Source: Candidatus Mediterraneibacter pullicola
GTDB lineage: Bacteria; Bacillota; Clostridia; Lachnospirales; Lachnospiraceae
Direction of reading: 5' to 3'
NCBI GenBank assembly: GCA_019117065.1
Contig: DXAK01000045.1
Span: 98,822 to 162,821 of the forward strand
DNA length: 64,000 bases
The notes beneath the pieces are model-generated. The model saw only the letters and a list, made by a program, of their open reading frames with translations. It did not search any database and was not told where the DNA came from. Positions 46,612-62,527 of this stretch are shown here, one piece after another (the stretch's first letter is position 1; the number at the start of each line of letters is the position of its first letter). The position numbers were made by a program, and so were the translations under genes.

Positions 46612-48669
46612 GTGATAAGAAAATCTAAATTACTGATATGCACGCTTGTCATGTCCATGATGGTGACTGTATTGCCAGGGATGACAAGCTATGCAGCTGA
46701 AGCAGAAGGGGAGACAGAGGCTTCAGCGACGGAACTTCAGGACGAGAACAGTCAGCGTCTTGAAGAAGTTACAGCAATGGACGAAGAAGGAAACATTTAC
46801 GAGATTGCTGATACCGACGGTACGGTTTCAGAAGAAGTTTCTGAGGAAACTGCCGAAGAGGAGACAAACGGGATTGCGCTGTTCAGCGCCCGGTCTGTTG
46901 AGAACAAAGTGGTCAACTTTAATACAAAAGGAAACGCTACGACAAATTATACTGACAGTAATGGAAAATCGGGATACACGAACGGGGCATACGGCGCGGA
47001 TGCGGCATATCTCGGAACGACTTCTGACGGTAATATCAAATTTATGCTGGCAGGCGTTACAGGGACAGTAAGTGCTTCTGACGTTGAACTTGTGGATTAC
47101 AGCACCGTGGCGGATAGGGTGAGTTATTATAAGGTGTCGGGAGGAAGGCTGATTCATTACATTTCCCAGAACCTGAACAATGCTCCTTCATCTACCATAG
47201 ATAATGGTCCCGCACCGTCCTATTTGAGTCAAGACACGAAGTATTACAGCTATGACGGACATTATTTTTACACGGATTACGGCGTGATGCTCTCAGATTA
47301 TCAGAGCGGATGCAACGGGGATTCCGCAGTTAATTCGGGGAACCGGTTTGAAAATTATTTCCAGTTCCTTGATATGAACAGTTCTACGGGATATTCTGCA
47401 GATGAATTGAACACCATTCTCAACGACACATTACAGAGCAAGGGAAAAAATTCAAGCTCCAAACTGTGGGATGCGGGAAACCTTTTCGTGAAATACCAGA
47501 ATACATACGGAGTCAATGCCCTGTTGTCCGTGGGAATCGCAATCAACGAGAGCGGCTGGGGGACAAGCAGTATTTCTCAAAATAAGAATAATCTTTTCGG
47601 TCTAAACGCTCAAGACAGCAACGTGGGGAACGCGTCAAGTTATTACAGTGTTGAGAGCTGCATTATAGACTTCATGAAAAACTGGATGGCAGGCGGATAC
47701 CTAAACGATGCAAGTTGGAAGAACTTCGGAGAGTTTCTCGGCAACAAGGGTGAAGGTATCAATGTAAAGTACGCGTCCGACCCGTACTGGGGCGAGAAAG
47801 CTGCGGCTCACGCATGGACTTTGGATGAGAACGGAGATAGCAGAGATTATACCGGTGTGGTTATCGAACCGCCGGCGGACGTTCCATCAACAGACGAACC
47901 GACAACGGATGAACCGGTAACAGATGTTCCATCAACAGACGAGCCGACAACGGATGAACCGGTAACAGACGTTCCATCAACAGACGAGCCAGTAACGGAT
48001 GAACCGGTAACAGATGTTCCATCAACAGACGAGCCGGTAACGGATGAACCAGTAACAGATGTTCCATCAACAGACGGGCCGTCAGTGGGATCAGGTTCAG
48101 ACGGCACAACGGCGGGTTCAGGCTCGGATGATACAGTAACAGGAGATGCAGGCTCAAACAGCGGAGCACAGACAGAGACACAGAAAACGGTTTCTGATTC
48201 CGCAGGAAAGGTTACAGTCAGCGGTAAACTTTCAGGAGGCGCAGGAGTTACAGTGGATATGGTTGCGCCAAATACAGATGCGTATACAAGGTATGTGTCT
48301 GCCGAATGCTTGAAGGGTAAGACCATTTTGGGTGTATATGATATTACGCTGACAGGAGAACTGGAGGGCGAAGCACAGCTTACTTTCCATGTGGATGCCA
48401 AGTACAATGGTAAAGATGTAATCATCCTGCATTATGCGGATGACGGAACATATGAAACTTACAATGCAAAAGTAGAAAACGGGCAGGTTACGATCAGTGT
48501 GAAAGGATTTTCTCCCTATGTGATCGCACTGAATGAGAGCGGCTCAGGCGCCGGTGCGGCAGCGCCGAAAACAGGCGATTCTTCTAACATAATGTTGTGG
48601 ATTGCACTACTTGGAATTTCAGTGGCAGCGGCAGCTGGAGCTTTGATAAGGAGAAGAGTATCTAGATAA
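46612..48669 (+). CDS. Cell-wall-anchored glucosaminidase-domain protein with D/P/T repeats and sortase signal
   Basis: Signal peptide; NTYGVNALLSVGIAINESGWGTSSISQNKNNLFGLNAQD glucosaminidase motif; 15-aa tandem repeats; APKTGD + TM + RRR C-terminus. Confidence 0.85.
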   Translation: MIRKSKLLICTLVMSMMVTVLPGMTSYAAEAEGETEASATELQDENSQRLEEVTAMDEEGNIYEIADTDGTVSEEVSEETAEEETNGIALFSARSVENKVVNFNTKGNATTNYTDSNGKSGYTNGAYGADAAYLGTTSDGNIKFMLAGVTGTVSASDVELVDYSTVADRVSYYKVSGGRLIHYISQNLNNAPSSTIDNGPAPSYLSQDTKYYSYDGHYFYTDYGVMLSDYQSGCNGDSAVNSGNRFENYFQFLDMNSSTGYSADELNTILNDTLQSKGKNSSSKLWDAGNLFVKYQNTYGVNALLSVGIAINESGWGTSSISQNKNNLFGLNAQDSNVGNASSYYSVESCIIDFMKNWMAGGYLNDASWKNFGEFLGNKGEGINVKYASDPYWGEKAAAHAWTLDENGDSRDYTGVVIEPPADVPSTDEPTTDEPVTDVPSTDEPTTDEPVTDVPSTDEPVTDEPVTDVPSTDEPVTDEPVTDVPSTDGPSVGSGSDGTTAGSGSDDTVTGDAGSNSGAQTETQKTVSDSAGKVTVSGKLSGGAGVTVDMVAPNTDAYTRYVSAECLKGKTILGVYDITLTGELEGEAQLTFHVDAKYNGKDVIILHYADDGTYETYNAKVENGQVTISVKGFSPYVIALNESGSGAGAAAPKTGDSSNIMLWIALLGISVAAAAGALIRRRVSR
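47881..48078 (+). repeat. In-frame 45-bp tandem repeat (4 copies plus partial) encoding VPSTDEP(T/V)TDEPVTD
   Basis: Repeat starts GTTCCATCAACAGAC at 47881, 47926, 47971, 48016, 48061. Confidence 0.95.
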
Positions 48670-59105: not shown

Positions 59106-59114
59106 TTTTTTAAA

Positions 59115-59431
59115 CCAGTGAGGAAGAGCAAGTAACTTCAAGATACTACTTTACAGAGAGCCCCGGATGGTGGGATCGGGGCAGGAAAGTGGTGAGGCGA
59201 ATGGACTTCTGAGGGCGAACTGAATACCGGGCGCGCAGCGCGGCCAGCGGATGCGGCGTCAGTTAGTAGGCGAGACGGAGACCAGACTTCGTTAGAGAAA
59301 GGAGCATATGCCAGTATGCATGAGAGGGTGTAGGATTACACCAAGCCGGGTGGCACCGCAGGAGTTTTGAATAATAGCTCTTGTCCCTGCAATAGTTATT
59401 TGTATGGGATGAGGGCTTTTTTGTTGTATAA
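59115..59431 (+). promoter_or_regulatory. T-box leader, predicted tRNA-Trp specificity, upstream of trpB2
   Basis: Stem I motifs (GAGGAAGAGCAAGTA, AGAGAGCC), T-box GGGTGGCACCGCAGG (59348-59362), candidate specifier TGG (59202-59204), terminator ending GGGATGAGGGCTTTTTT. Confidence 0.93.
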
Positions 59432-59461: not shown

Positions 59462-60847
59462 GTGAGAGAAAAGAAAATTCCTTACAAAATCTATCTTGAA
59501 GAGAGCGAGATGCCAAGAGAATGGTACAATGTCCGCGCGGATATGAAGAATAAGCCTGCGCCTCTTCTGAATCCGGGAACTCTTCAGCCCATGACAGAGG
59601 AGGAGCTGGAGGTTGTATTCTGTGAGGAACTTGTGAAGCAGGAACTGGACAATGACAACCGTTATATTGAAATTCCGAAAAAGATCCGGGATTTCTATAA
59701 GATGTATCGCCCGTCGCCACTTGTGCGCGCCTACTGTCTGGAAGAAAAGCTACAGACTCCGGCAAAAATTTATTATAAGTTCGAGGGGAATAATACGAGT
59801 GGAAGCCATAAGCTTAATTCCGCGATCGCGCAGGCCTTTTATGCAAAGGATCAGGGATTAAAGGGCGTGACCACAGAGACGGGCGCCGGACAATGGGGAA
59901 CAGCGCTGTCGATGGCGTGCTCTTATCTTGATTTGGACTGTAAGGTATATATGGTGAAATGCTCTTACGAGCAGAAGCCGTTCCGCCGTGAAGTGATGCG
60001 TACTTACGGCGCCAGCGTAACGCCGTCTCCTTCTGATACTACGGAAGTGGGTAGAAAAATTCTTGCAGAGCATCCGGGAACGACGGGAAGTCTCGGCTGT
60101 GCCATTTCCGAGGCGGTCGAAGTGGCGACTCACACGGAAGGATACAGATACGTTCTGGGAAGTGTGCTTAATCAGGTGCTTTTGCATCAGTCCGTCATCG
60201 GCGTAGAGACGAAGACTGCCATGGACAAATACGGCATCAAACCGGATGTGATTATAGGATGTGCGGGCGGAGGATCGAATCTGGGAGGTCTGATCTCGCC
60301 GTTCATGGGAGAAAAGTTAAGAGGAGAGGCGGATTATCAGTTTATCGCAGTAGAACCGGCATCTTGCCCGAGCCTCACAAGAGGCGTGTATGCGTATGAT
60401 TTCTGTGATACCGGAATGGTGTGCCCGTTGGCGAAGATGTATACACTGGGAAGTAACTTTATTCCGTCCGCAAACCACGCGGGAGGCCTCCGTTATCACG
60501 GCATGAGCTCCACCCTGTCACAGCTTTACCACGACGGATATATGGAGGCTCGCGCAGTCGAACAGACTGCGGTATTTGAGGCGGCAGAGCAGTTTGCTCG
60601 TGTTGAGGGTATTCTTCCGGCGCCAGAAAGCAGCCATGCGATTAAAGTTGCAATCGATGAAGCAATGAAGTGTAAGGAAACGGGAGAGGAAAAGACAATC
60701 CTCTTTGGACTTACTGGTACAGGATACTTCGATATGTACGCTTATGAGGCATTTAACGACGGAAAGATGACAGACTACATTCCTACAGACGAAGATCTCA
60801 AAGCCGGATTTGACGGAATACCAAGATTCCATGGAAATATGGAATAG
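59462..60847 (+). CDS. TrpB-like PLP-dependent enzyme (TrpB2)
   Basis: PSPLVRAYCLEEKLQTPAKIYYKFEGNNTSGSHKLNSAIAQAFYAKDQG; ETGAGQWGTALSMA; CAGGGSNLGGL; TrpB2-type N-terminal extension. Confidence 0.93.
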   Translation: MREKKIPYKIYLEESEMPREWYNVRADMKNKPAPLLNPGTLQPMTEEELEVVFCEELVKQELDNDNRYIEIPKKIRDFYKMYRPSPLVRAYCLEEKLQTPAKIYYKFEGNNTSGSHKLNSAIAQAFYAKDQGLKGVTTETGAGQWGTALSMACSYLDLDCKVYMVKCSYEQKPFRREVMRTYGASVTPSPSDTTEVGRKILAEHPGTTGSLGCAISEAVEVATHTEGYRYVLGSVLNQVLLHQSVIGVETKTAMDKYGIKPDVIIGCAGGGSNLGGLISPFMGEKLRGEADYQFIAVEPASCPSLTRGVYAYDFCDTGMVCPLAKMYTLGSNFIPSANHAGGLRYHGMSSTLSQLYHDGYMEARAVEQTAVFEAAEQFARVEGILPAPESSHAIKVAIDEAMKCKETGEEKTILFGLTGTGYFDMYAYEAFNDGKMTDYIPTDEDLKAGFDGIPRFHGNME

Positions 60848-60873
60848 CATTGAGCCATGCACAGAATATCCGG

Positions 60874-60977
60874 AATCCGTCTCGTACTTGTACGAAAGAC
60901 GGAATCCGGATATTTCTGTATAGGGCGAGAGCCCGCAGCGAGAAGAAGCGAAGCGGAATCGAGCTGGCATGGCGAAA
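60874..60977. repeat. 104-bp direct repeat, copy 1
   Basis: Identical to 60993-61096; includes the long palindrome 60861-60919. Confidence 0.97.
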
Positions 60978-60992
60978 AGGAACAAGGAGAAA

Positions 60993-61096
60993 AATCCGTC
61001 TCGTACTTGTACGAAAGACGGAATCCGGATATTTCTGTATAGGGCGAGAGCCCGCAGCGAGAAGAAGCGAAGCGGAATCGAGCTGGCATGGCGAAA
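60993..61096. repeat. 104-bp direct repeat, copy 2
   Basis: Identical to 60874-60977, separated by AGGAACAAGGAGAAA. Confidence 0.97.
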
Positions 61097-61158: not shown

Positions 61159-61187
61159 TTGACTTTTCATGCGGGGAATAGTATTAT
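61159..61187 (+). promoter_or_regulatory. tRNA-Leu(AAG) promoter
   Basis: TTGACT - 17 nt - TATTAT. Confidence 0.65.
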
Positions 61188-61240
61188 ATCACTTGTGGTC
61201 AGCGCCGTAGAGAGCAGATCACGAAAATCCAATATGGAAT

Positions 61241-61324
61241 GCGGAAGTGTCGGAACTGGCAGACGAGCAAGACTAAGGATCTTGTGACATTCGTGTCGTG
61301 TGGGTTCAAGTCCCATCTTCCGCA
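61241..61324 (+). tRNA. tRNA-Leu (anticodon AAG)
   Basis: Acceptor GCGGAAG/CTTCCGC, anticodon arm CAAGA-CTAAGGA-TCTTG, long variable arm, T arm TGGG-TTCAAGT-CCCA, discriminator A. Confidence 0.95.
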
Positions 61325-61333
61325 CTGGAGTAA

Positions 61334-61414: not shown

Positions 61415-62527
61415 TTATAAAATCTTTATGCTCTTTATTTGGTTGTTTTCTTTCTCTTTTAGTTTCTTTGTAGCGTGCAAGTATATTTCTTTCGTGATTT
61501 TCGAATCAGTATGCCCTAGCCTTCTTGAAATACTATCTTCACTCATTCCGTTTTCCATCATCAGACTCGCATGTGTGTGCCGGAGAGTATGAGGTGTAAT
61601 TGCCCGCCCGAGCTCTTTTGTTGAGATTTTGCGGAGATATTTGTTATAGGCAAAGAAACTTATGTGTTCCCCATTATCGTCTGTAAAAAGTGGATTTCCG
61701 GCGTTCAGAGAGACGATTGTATTTGATATTGACTCTGATATGATATGTCTGCAAAGTACATATAGTTCGTCCTGCATATACACATCACGAATGGAAGTCC
61801 TTGTTTTTGGAGTAGTGATTATTTTGTTTACAGAATCATAGTTTTTTGTAACATGGATCACTCGCTCTTTAAAATCCAGATCCGATTGTTTCAACGCAGC
61901 AGCTTCTCCGAAACGCAGACCAGATAGGGTGAGGAAAAGCGTTAAGTTTTTCCATTTCTGTACTTTCATACCACTGATTAGAACAGCTACTTCTGTTGAT
62001 TCCAGAAACTTATTTTCAATCTTTTCTCTGTGCGGAGTATCTGAGAATGGCTCCAACTTATCGAGATAAGCGATATTTCCGACATAGTCATTACGATATC
62101 CCCATCGAATTAGAGCCTTTAATCGCGTCAGATGCTCATTAAGGGTACCATGATTTTTACCGGTACTTAATAATGATTTACGGATATACCCAGCCGCTAG
62201 ATTCTTTACCTTGGTATCTGATCCAAGAATCTTTTTTAGAGTCTCACATGCAAAATAATTTCTTTGGTAGGTTGAGTCCTTTACAGTTCTTTTTTGTTCT
62301 TCCCGATATTTTTCAATCAGTTCTTCGAGTGTAATGTCCTCTGAATTTGCACATACATCTTTTTCGGCATCCTCTATCTTCTTCGATATGGCCTTTTGAG
62401 CTTGTTTTCGGCTCTGAGGAGTATCTTTATCGAGTGTGACAGAAACGCGTCTGTATTTTCCTGTCAGAGGATCTGTGTAGCGCTCAATATACTTGTATTT
62501 TCCTTTCTTAGTTTGTTCTACCCACAT
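61415..62527 (-). mobile_element. int: Tyrosine recombinase/phage-type integrase (CDS) pointing toward tRNA-Leu
   Basis: SGLRFGEAAAL, HTLRHTHASLM, LGH, Y in KEIYLHATKKL: the catalytic Arg, His-x-x-Arg, His and Tyr are all present; N-terminal AP2-like arm domain. Confidence 0.93.

Follow-up and report, generated by a model that had tools for sequence, protein, structure and literature searches.

The window, a stretch of 64,000 nucleotides from Candidatus Mediterraneibacter pullicola, carries between a trpB2-like gene and a tRNA-Leu gene a palindromic element that is partly duplicated in tandem. The preliminary description overlooked the true start of this element, which lies at 60854, seven bases downstream of the stop codon of trpB2. 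The features of the locus are as follows.

59462-60847, + strand: trpB2-like upstream gene (tryptophan synthase beta-like, 461 aa; ORF list), stop codon TAG at 60845-60847
60848-60853, + strand: leader CATTGA, the end of a weak leader consensus that precedes P1 in many copies
60854-60860, + strand: P1 5' strand, GCCATGC (fold, pair counts)
60861-60919, + strand: P2, a long hairpin of 25 bp, arms 60861-60886 and 60891-60919, CTTG apex 60887-60890
60920-60922, + strand: linker ATA, invariant in a 24-sequence alignment
60923-60934, + strand: P3, hairpin GGGC-GAGA-GCCC (fold, RNAalifold)
60936-60966, + strand: P4, CAGC-GA-GA..GC-GAA-GC..GA-GCTG, the most conserved part of the element
60967-60973, + strand: P1 3' strand, GCATGGC (fold, pair counts)
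60978-60992, + strand: spacer between the copies, 15 bp, AGGAACAAGGAGAAA (coordinate check)
60993-61096, + strand: tandem copy 2, with inner P2 to 61038, P3 at 61042-61053, P4 at 61055-61085 and P1 3' strand at 61086-61092
61241-61325, + strand: tRNA-Leu(AAG), the downstream neighbor, outside the element

The two P1 strands pair with each other and close a four-way junction of P1, P2, P3 and P4, the last being a stem rich in purines that contains tandem G-A oppositions and ends in a GC-GNA-GC tip. Folding of positions 60855-60990 gave a minimum free energy (MFE) of -58.1 kcal/mol, compared to -33.2 +/- 3.8 kcal/mol for dinucleotide shuffles (z = -6.6), and none of 200 shuffles was as stable; the reverse strand folds with similar stability (z = -7.5). 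The long inverted repeat that had been noticed at the left edge is therefore real and corresponds to P2, and the GGGC-GAGA-GCCC hairpin is present where P3 lies. ORFs on both strands cross the element mechanically, as the ORF list shows. As far as tested, it holds that no CDS explains the sequence: conservation across species falls on base pairs and not on codons, which rules out a coding function.

The neighborhood holds several other features. Upstream of trpB2, a T-box leader-like RNA (59109-59391, + strand) matched at 75 bits (E 7e-16; gathering score of 93 unmet), so that trpB2 probably has a 5' leader that senses tRNA and controls the gene. The tRNA-Leu gene is preceded by promoter-like sequence (-35 TTGACT at 61159-61164, -10 near 61182-61189) and is adjoined by an ORF (61415-62527, - strand) that, by reading, resembles a tyrosine recombinase; the contig stops at the end of the window, and the extent of any integrated element is beyond view. 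At 47866-48090, 15-bp tandem repeats of the GAACCGGTAACAGAT type look like the coding repeat of a surface-type protein.

Repeat search and direct string comparison both showed that 60874-60977 and 60993-61096 are two copies of 104 nt, 100% identical and 119 nt apart from start to start, exactly as first described. The coordinates also confirmed that the outer left arm is gone from copy 2: its P2 keeps the inner left arm (60994-61005) and the entire right arm, and the P1 5' strand is missing as well. Copy 2 is a 119-bp tandem duplication of copy 1 with the outer P2 arm lost. When folded jointly, the two copies can form a nested larger structure of -99.9 kcal/mol. Since the repeated unit begins within the P2 left arm or apex in this genome (G000) and likewise in G007 (L015) and G076 (L265), the window duplication is one case of a recurring type.

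A DNA-similarity search of this genome matched only the two window copies, as would suit the idea that a trpB2 terminator next to a recombination-prone tRNA and integrase was duplicated once. The same search among relatives, however, gave matches in 34 of 61 genomes, all 34 from the same genus, mostly to the part that follows P2 and often in tandem with a period of about 50-80 bp. The extracted copies nearly always fold into the same architecture (P1 of 5-10 bp; P2 of 20-31 bp within 52-66 nt), with an invariant ATA linker followed by P3 and by a P4 of the form CAGY-GA-GAU-GNA-GC-GNA-GC-GGA-AUC-GA-RCUG. A MAFFT alignment of 24 sequences, A1, served to build a covariance model, R1. This model found 15 matches in this genome, diverged P4 variants included, and hundreds in relatives: genomes of 55 of the 58 species of Mediterraneibacter carry matches, up to 36 per genome, as do 115 of 200 Lachnospiraceae genomes (by name Mediterraneibacter and, outside it, for example Muricomes, Eisenbergiella, Coprococcus comes and Faecalicatena). 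R1 E-values are rough, but the control was clean, since a 200-genome sample of the phylum gave no match outside the family, the two genomes with matches being the query and a second member of the Lachnospiraceae. The idea that only these two copies exist is thus refuted, and a one-off duplication has next to no probability left. We conclude that the window holds, duplicated in tandem, one copy of an interspersed structured element found across the Lachnospiraceae, hereafter the P1-P4 element. A phage origin was ruled out by the absence of the exact P4 core pattern from 2.9 million viral contigs.

To describe the conservation of the fold, we took pair statistics on A1, which had been aligned without use of structure. 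Standard pairs fill 92.4% of the pair cells and 30 of the 44 pairs changed on both sides, in agreement with RNAalifold; 261 cells are compensatory (changed on both sides), against 80.7 +/- 8.5 after shuffling and 55-82 when the partners were slid. Compensatory change in the stems, which a mere local duplication would lack, is therefore massive. In P2, all 25 model pairs vary on both sides. Between copies of one genome, P2 identity was 0.53 versus 0.44 for shuffled sequences, with none of 60 pairs above 0.8, and the mean identity of the remaining part was 0.80. Even the orthologous copies between trpB2 and tRNA-Leu (in G002, G004, G035, G036, G064, G074, G076 and G081) have arms that visibly differ and are still complementary. 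The P2 sequence is hypervariable with its pairing kept, which makes this a conserved structured element.

The strand that folds could be addressed through imperfections in P2. Each P2 was aligned with its own reverse complement under a strand-symmetric scheme, and isolated mismatches were collected from 118 elements. On the strand that runs in the direction of the upstream gene, G-U oppositions occurred at 38 distinct places versus 12 for A-C (p = 3e-4), A-C on this strand being equivalent to G-T on the opposite one, and G-A oppositions occurred at 32 distinct places versus 0 for C-U (p = 5e-10). These biases indicate that the co-directional strand, rather than duplex DNA generally, is under structural selection. 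The natural reading is that the folding molecule is RNA, a specific single DNA strand being the alternative; together with the covariation, the biased mismatches favor a structured RNA over a palindrome that acts at the DNA level alone.

The position of the element relative to genes is equally marked. Among 138 distinct elements, 131 had an upstream neighbor called by a simple ORF picker, and 107 of these 131 neighbors are on the same strand. As many as 96 of the 131 elements start 0-18 nt after a same-strand stop codon, and 89 of the 107 same-strand copies lie within 15 nt; copies at orthologous loci are not independent, and these counts represent 30 distinct stop-adjacent upstreams. There are 23 unrelated clusters of upstream genes, which include aldehyde dehydrogenase, M23 peptidase, SNF symporter, V-ATPase B, trpB2, ABC transporter, FabG-like reductase, Fe-ADH, rubrerythrin, L28, EF-Tu, phosphorylase, acetolactate synthase small subunit, MatE, SpoIVA, AIRS-type, SmpB and GltD-like oxidoreductase genes, among others. 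The weak leader consensus before P1 is TAAGCATTGA, and its TAA or TAG is often the stop codon of the gene. Stop-codon recoding (selenocysteine, pyrrolysine or readthrough) was ruled out by the distribution of the adjoining stop codons (TAA 46, TAG 36, TGA 14). In a Candidatus Scybalocola faecavium contig, a copy (L144) follows the stop codon of smpB, whose product is the partner of tmRNA, at a distance of 5 nt.

A stable hairpin directly behind a stop codon and in the orientation of the gene is also what intrinsic terminators look like, and the element could be an unusual terminator or a terminator replacement. At trpB2, element-bearing species have no obvious G+C-rich hairpin-plus-U-tract terminator past the element, whereas several element-free relatives have one, a descriptive comparison from a hairpin survey that over-calls terminators in AT-rich sequence. 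However, the U-tract of intrinsic terminators is absent from the window copy, where ATAGGGCG comes after P2 and GAAA/GAAATATT after P1, and copies lie inside apparent operons: one (L020) between V-ATPase B and an ORF that by reading is D-like, another (L021) between aldehyde dehydrogenase and an ORF that by reading is alcohol-dehydrogenase-like and starts 34 nt past the element. We conclude that the element is not simply a terminator, from which it also differs in its much larger size and its conserved domain, and a terminator function of this kind appears improbable.

The trpB2 locus itself could be compared across the genus, in which 48 of 58 species have trpB2 orthologues. The element occupies the same gap between trpB2 and tRNA-Leu in about ten other species, and dozens of other loci carry it too, so that the suggestion of a recombination-prone junction is not supported; this tRNA-Leu and the integrase are incidental to the element. 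In most element-free species, the gap contains a terminator or a different stable hairpin or palindrome, and about nine lack any strong hairpin, so the element is not required there. A search for a clean empty site or a target duplication at trpB2 found no clear case of either, only deletion-like remnants and diverged gaps. The remnants are in G012, G027 and possibly G063, and as the first two look like deletion derivatives, copies appear to be lost as well. In some relatives (L242, L246, L264 and L312), the same gap holds other palindromic repeats, GGTGCCAGGCACTTTTGCAAAAGTGCCTGGCACC and GGGGTCAGACCCC...GGGGTCTGACCCC.

Evidence of mobility came from two other genera. Near-identical copies, at least nine of them, occur in genome G224 with unrelated upstream flanks, and G265 carries four that are identical and lie at contig ends, together with relatives, which shows recent dispersal in both. 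The G224 copies comprise two P2 types, which are set apart by few differences, two compensated double changes among them; one copy at a contig end (L280) joins the left arm of one P2 type to the right arm of the other and is either a recombinant or an assembly chimera. No recent-looking pairs of copies were found within Mediterraneibacter. The P1 strands form inverted repeats at the element ends, and inspection of the G224 and G265 flanks revealed no clear target-site duplication. Loci hold from one to at least five P3-P4 modules, usually with P3-P4 alone repeated.

These observations raise the possibility of a purely selfish MITE- or REP-like DNA element, mobilized in trans and without a host role, whose arms are kept complementary by hairpin-templated correction during replication. 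The near-identical copies with unrelated flanks, the diverged arms among within-genome copies elsewhere and the frequent tandem arrays agree with it, but strand-biased mismatches are not expected if duplex DNA alone matters, co-orientation with the upstream gene is strong, and target-site duplication is not established. Moreover, a search for the Y1 transposase (PF01797) gave no match in G224, in spite of its recent copies, and one weak match in G000, so that mobilization by RAYT/Y1 is unsupported; the hypervariable stems are the opposite of those of REPs. We therefore regard purely selfish DNA as rather unlikely. The preliminary description, which had proposed a REP/MITE-like palindromic element or a duplicated structured RNA, was right in that the element is interspersed, palindromic, structured and locally duplicated, but a REP in the strict RAYT sense is not supported.

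We then looked for known RNA families. An Rfam scan of the window returned nothing at gathering score except tRNAs, and sub-gathering matches to eukaryotic miRNA families, which match any long hairpin, were dismissed. The Clostridiales-1 RNA model (RF01699) aligns full-length (1-166) to a window copy with an E-value of 1.4e-4; its gathering score of 48 bits is unmet, the window copies scoring 32.0 and 20.7 bits and the best of 20 relatives' loci 37.7 bits. In its source paper (Weinberg et al. 2010, PMC2864571), this RNA is confined to a row of a table. It appears to share with the P1-P4 element a closing stem, a long hairpin with a GCUUGC-type apex, a shorter domain with a GC-GNA-GC-like tip and an occurrence in Clostridiales of the gut, but beyond the long hairpin it continues with a longer and different part, and in one copy the alignment of that domain has many gaps and broken pairs. 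Diverged Clostridiales-1-like elements also occupy separate loci in this same genome. Thus, the two are probably distant relatives and not one family. The sub-threshold Clostridiales-1-like elements (L005-L010; C3, C44, C29, C39 twice in tandem, and C22) include tandem duplications too; several end in CAGTTCAG...CTGAACTG inverted repeats, and one such tail adjoins a P1-P4 element in L072.

That P4 is near-invariant suggests that it has a partner, which makes an sRNA or ribonucleoprotein role the main rival to an mRNA-borne function. Here, the element would be a stand-alone or 3'-UTR-derived sRNA family, distantly related to Clostridiales-1, in which P4 binds a putative partner protein or RNA and the mRNA is a mere carrier. 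The focus of sequence conservation on P4, P3 and the ATA linker and the full-length sub-threshold Clostridiales-1 matches are in line with this, as are some free-standing copies with promoter-like sequence, from which a transcript would begin at P1. A suitably placed -10-like hexamer was present in 7 of 17 distinct free-standing copies versus 18% of control windows, and the near-identical G265 copies (L269-L274) have in common a TATAAT that precedes the element by about 20-25 nt; some copies may thus be independent sRNA genes or 5' leaders and not 3'-UTR elements. At least one of these G265 copies is placed like a 5' leader, directly ahead of a gene start that has a ribosome-binding site. A promoter of their own for free-standing copies in general was dropped because only those 7 of 17 have the hexamer. 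Against an sRNA family, most copies lie at a stop codon without a promoter of their own, and up to 36 copies per genome would be unusual for a trans-acting sRNA; we consider this explanation possible, though unlikely.

Judged by description, the closest functional analogues of the P1-P4 element are BOX elements and REP/BIMEs. Like the BOX elements of Streptococcus pneumoniae (PMC3049150), it is interspersed, structured, modular and variable in the number of tandem modules, and it is predicted to be transcribed as they are. BOX has the form boxA-boxB(n)-boxC, in which boxB folds apart, whereas in the P1-P4 element the iterated 3' module is P3-P4, to which part of P2 is sometimes added; further differences are its hypervariable hairpin and its tight adjacency to stop codons. 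The stems of REPs are short and conserved in sequence; the P1-P4 element differs in its hypervariable stems, in its separate conserved P3/P4 domain and in having no Y1/RAYT link in G224. Its resemblance to REP/BIMEs (PMC12306157) is that both are palindromic, have many copies and often lie behind stop codons and between the genes of operons.

On balance, we lean toward a REP/BOX-like interspersed 3'-UTR RNA element with a role at mRNA boundaries or near stop codons. The element occupies for the most part 3'-UTRs and the spaces between cistrons, in the orientation of the upstream gene, and its sense transcript would fold to a four-way junction in which a near-perfect hairpin of roughly 23-31 bp stands beside the compact conserved P3/P4 domain. 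After Rho termination (Rho is encoded in the genome) or internal cleavage, the fold could set a 3' boundary that resists 3'-5' exonucleases, and protective intercistronic structures without a U-tract are known, as in the malE-malF case (PMC5927463). The folded RNA may also brake the ribosome at the stop codon, a mode of action like that of the stop-proximal REP/BIMEs of enterobacteria; according to work cited in PMC12306157, REPs within 15 nt of stop codons stall ribosomes. By these analogies, we infer that the exact action would be protection of the mRNA 3' end, braking of the ribosome at the stop codon or release of an sRNA. The element would spread as a non-autonomous repeat, and the P3-P4 arrays and the 119-bp duplication would arise later through local tandem duplication. 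More speculatively, it may be a portable module for translation termination or mRNA ends, with a nearly free hairpin sequence whose pairing and length are kept, inserted or retained precisely behind stop codons, which its own leader would often supply, and possibly spread by RNA copying and not by Y1.

We found no description of the P1-P4 element in the open-access literature; supplementary tables of RNA-motif screens (e.g. PMC8040213), which were outside the search, may list it unnamed. Because it is sub-threshold in Rfam, its loci go unflagged by standard Rfam-based annotation. Stop-adjacent REPs of E. coli are known to affect translation and mRNA life; the P1-P4 element is an easily searched RNA element, spread across a family outside the enterobacteria, that lies behind core genes of common gut bacteria (EF-Tu, SmpB, L28, V-ATPase) and varies naturally in presence and copy number at orthologous sites. 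If stop-adjacent elements stall ribosomes, the smpB-adjacent copy would be of interest. The hypervariable paired arms, together with the near-invariant P4, lead to clear testable predictions: rescue by re-pairing of the arms and pull-down of a partner.
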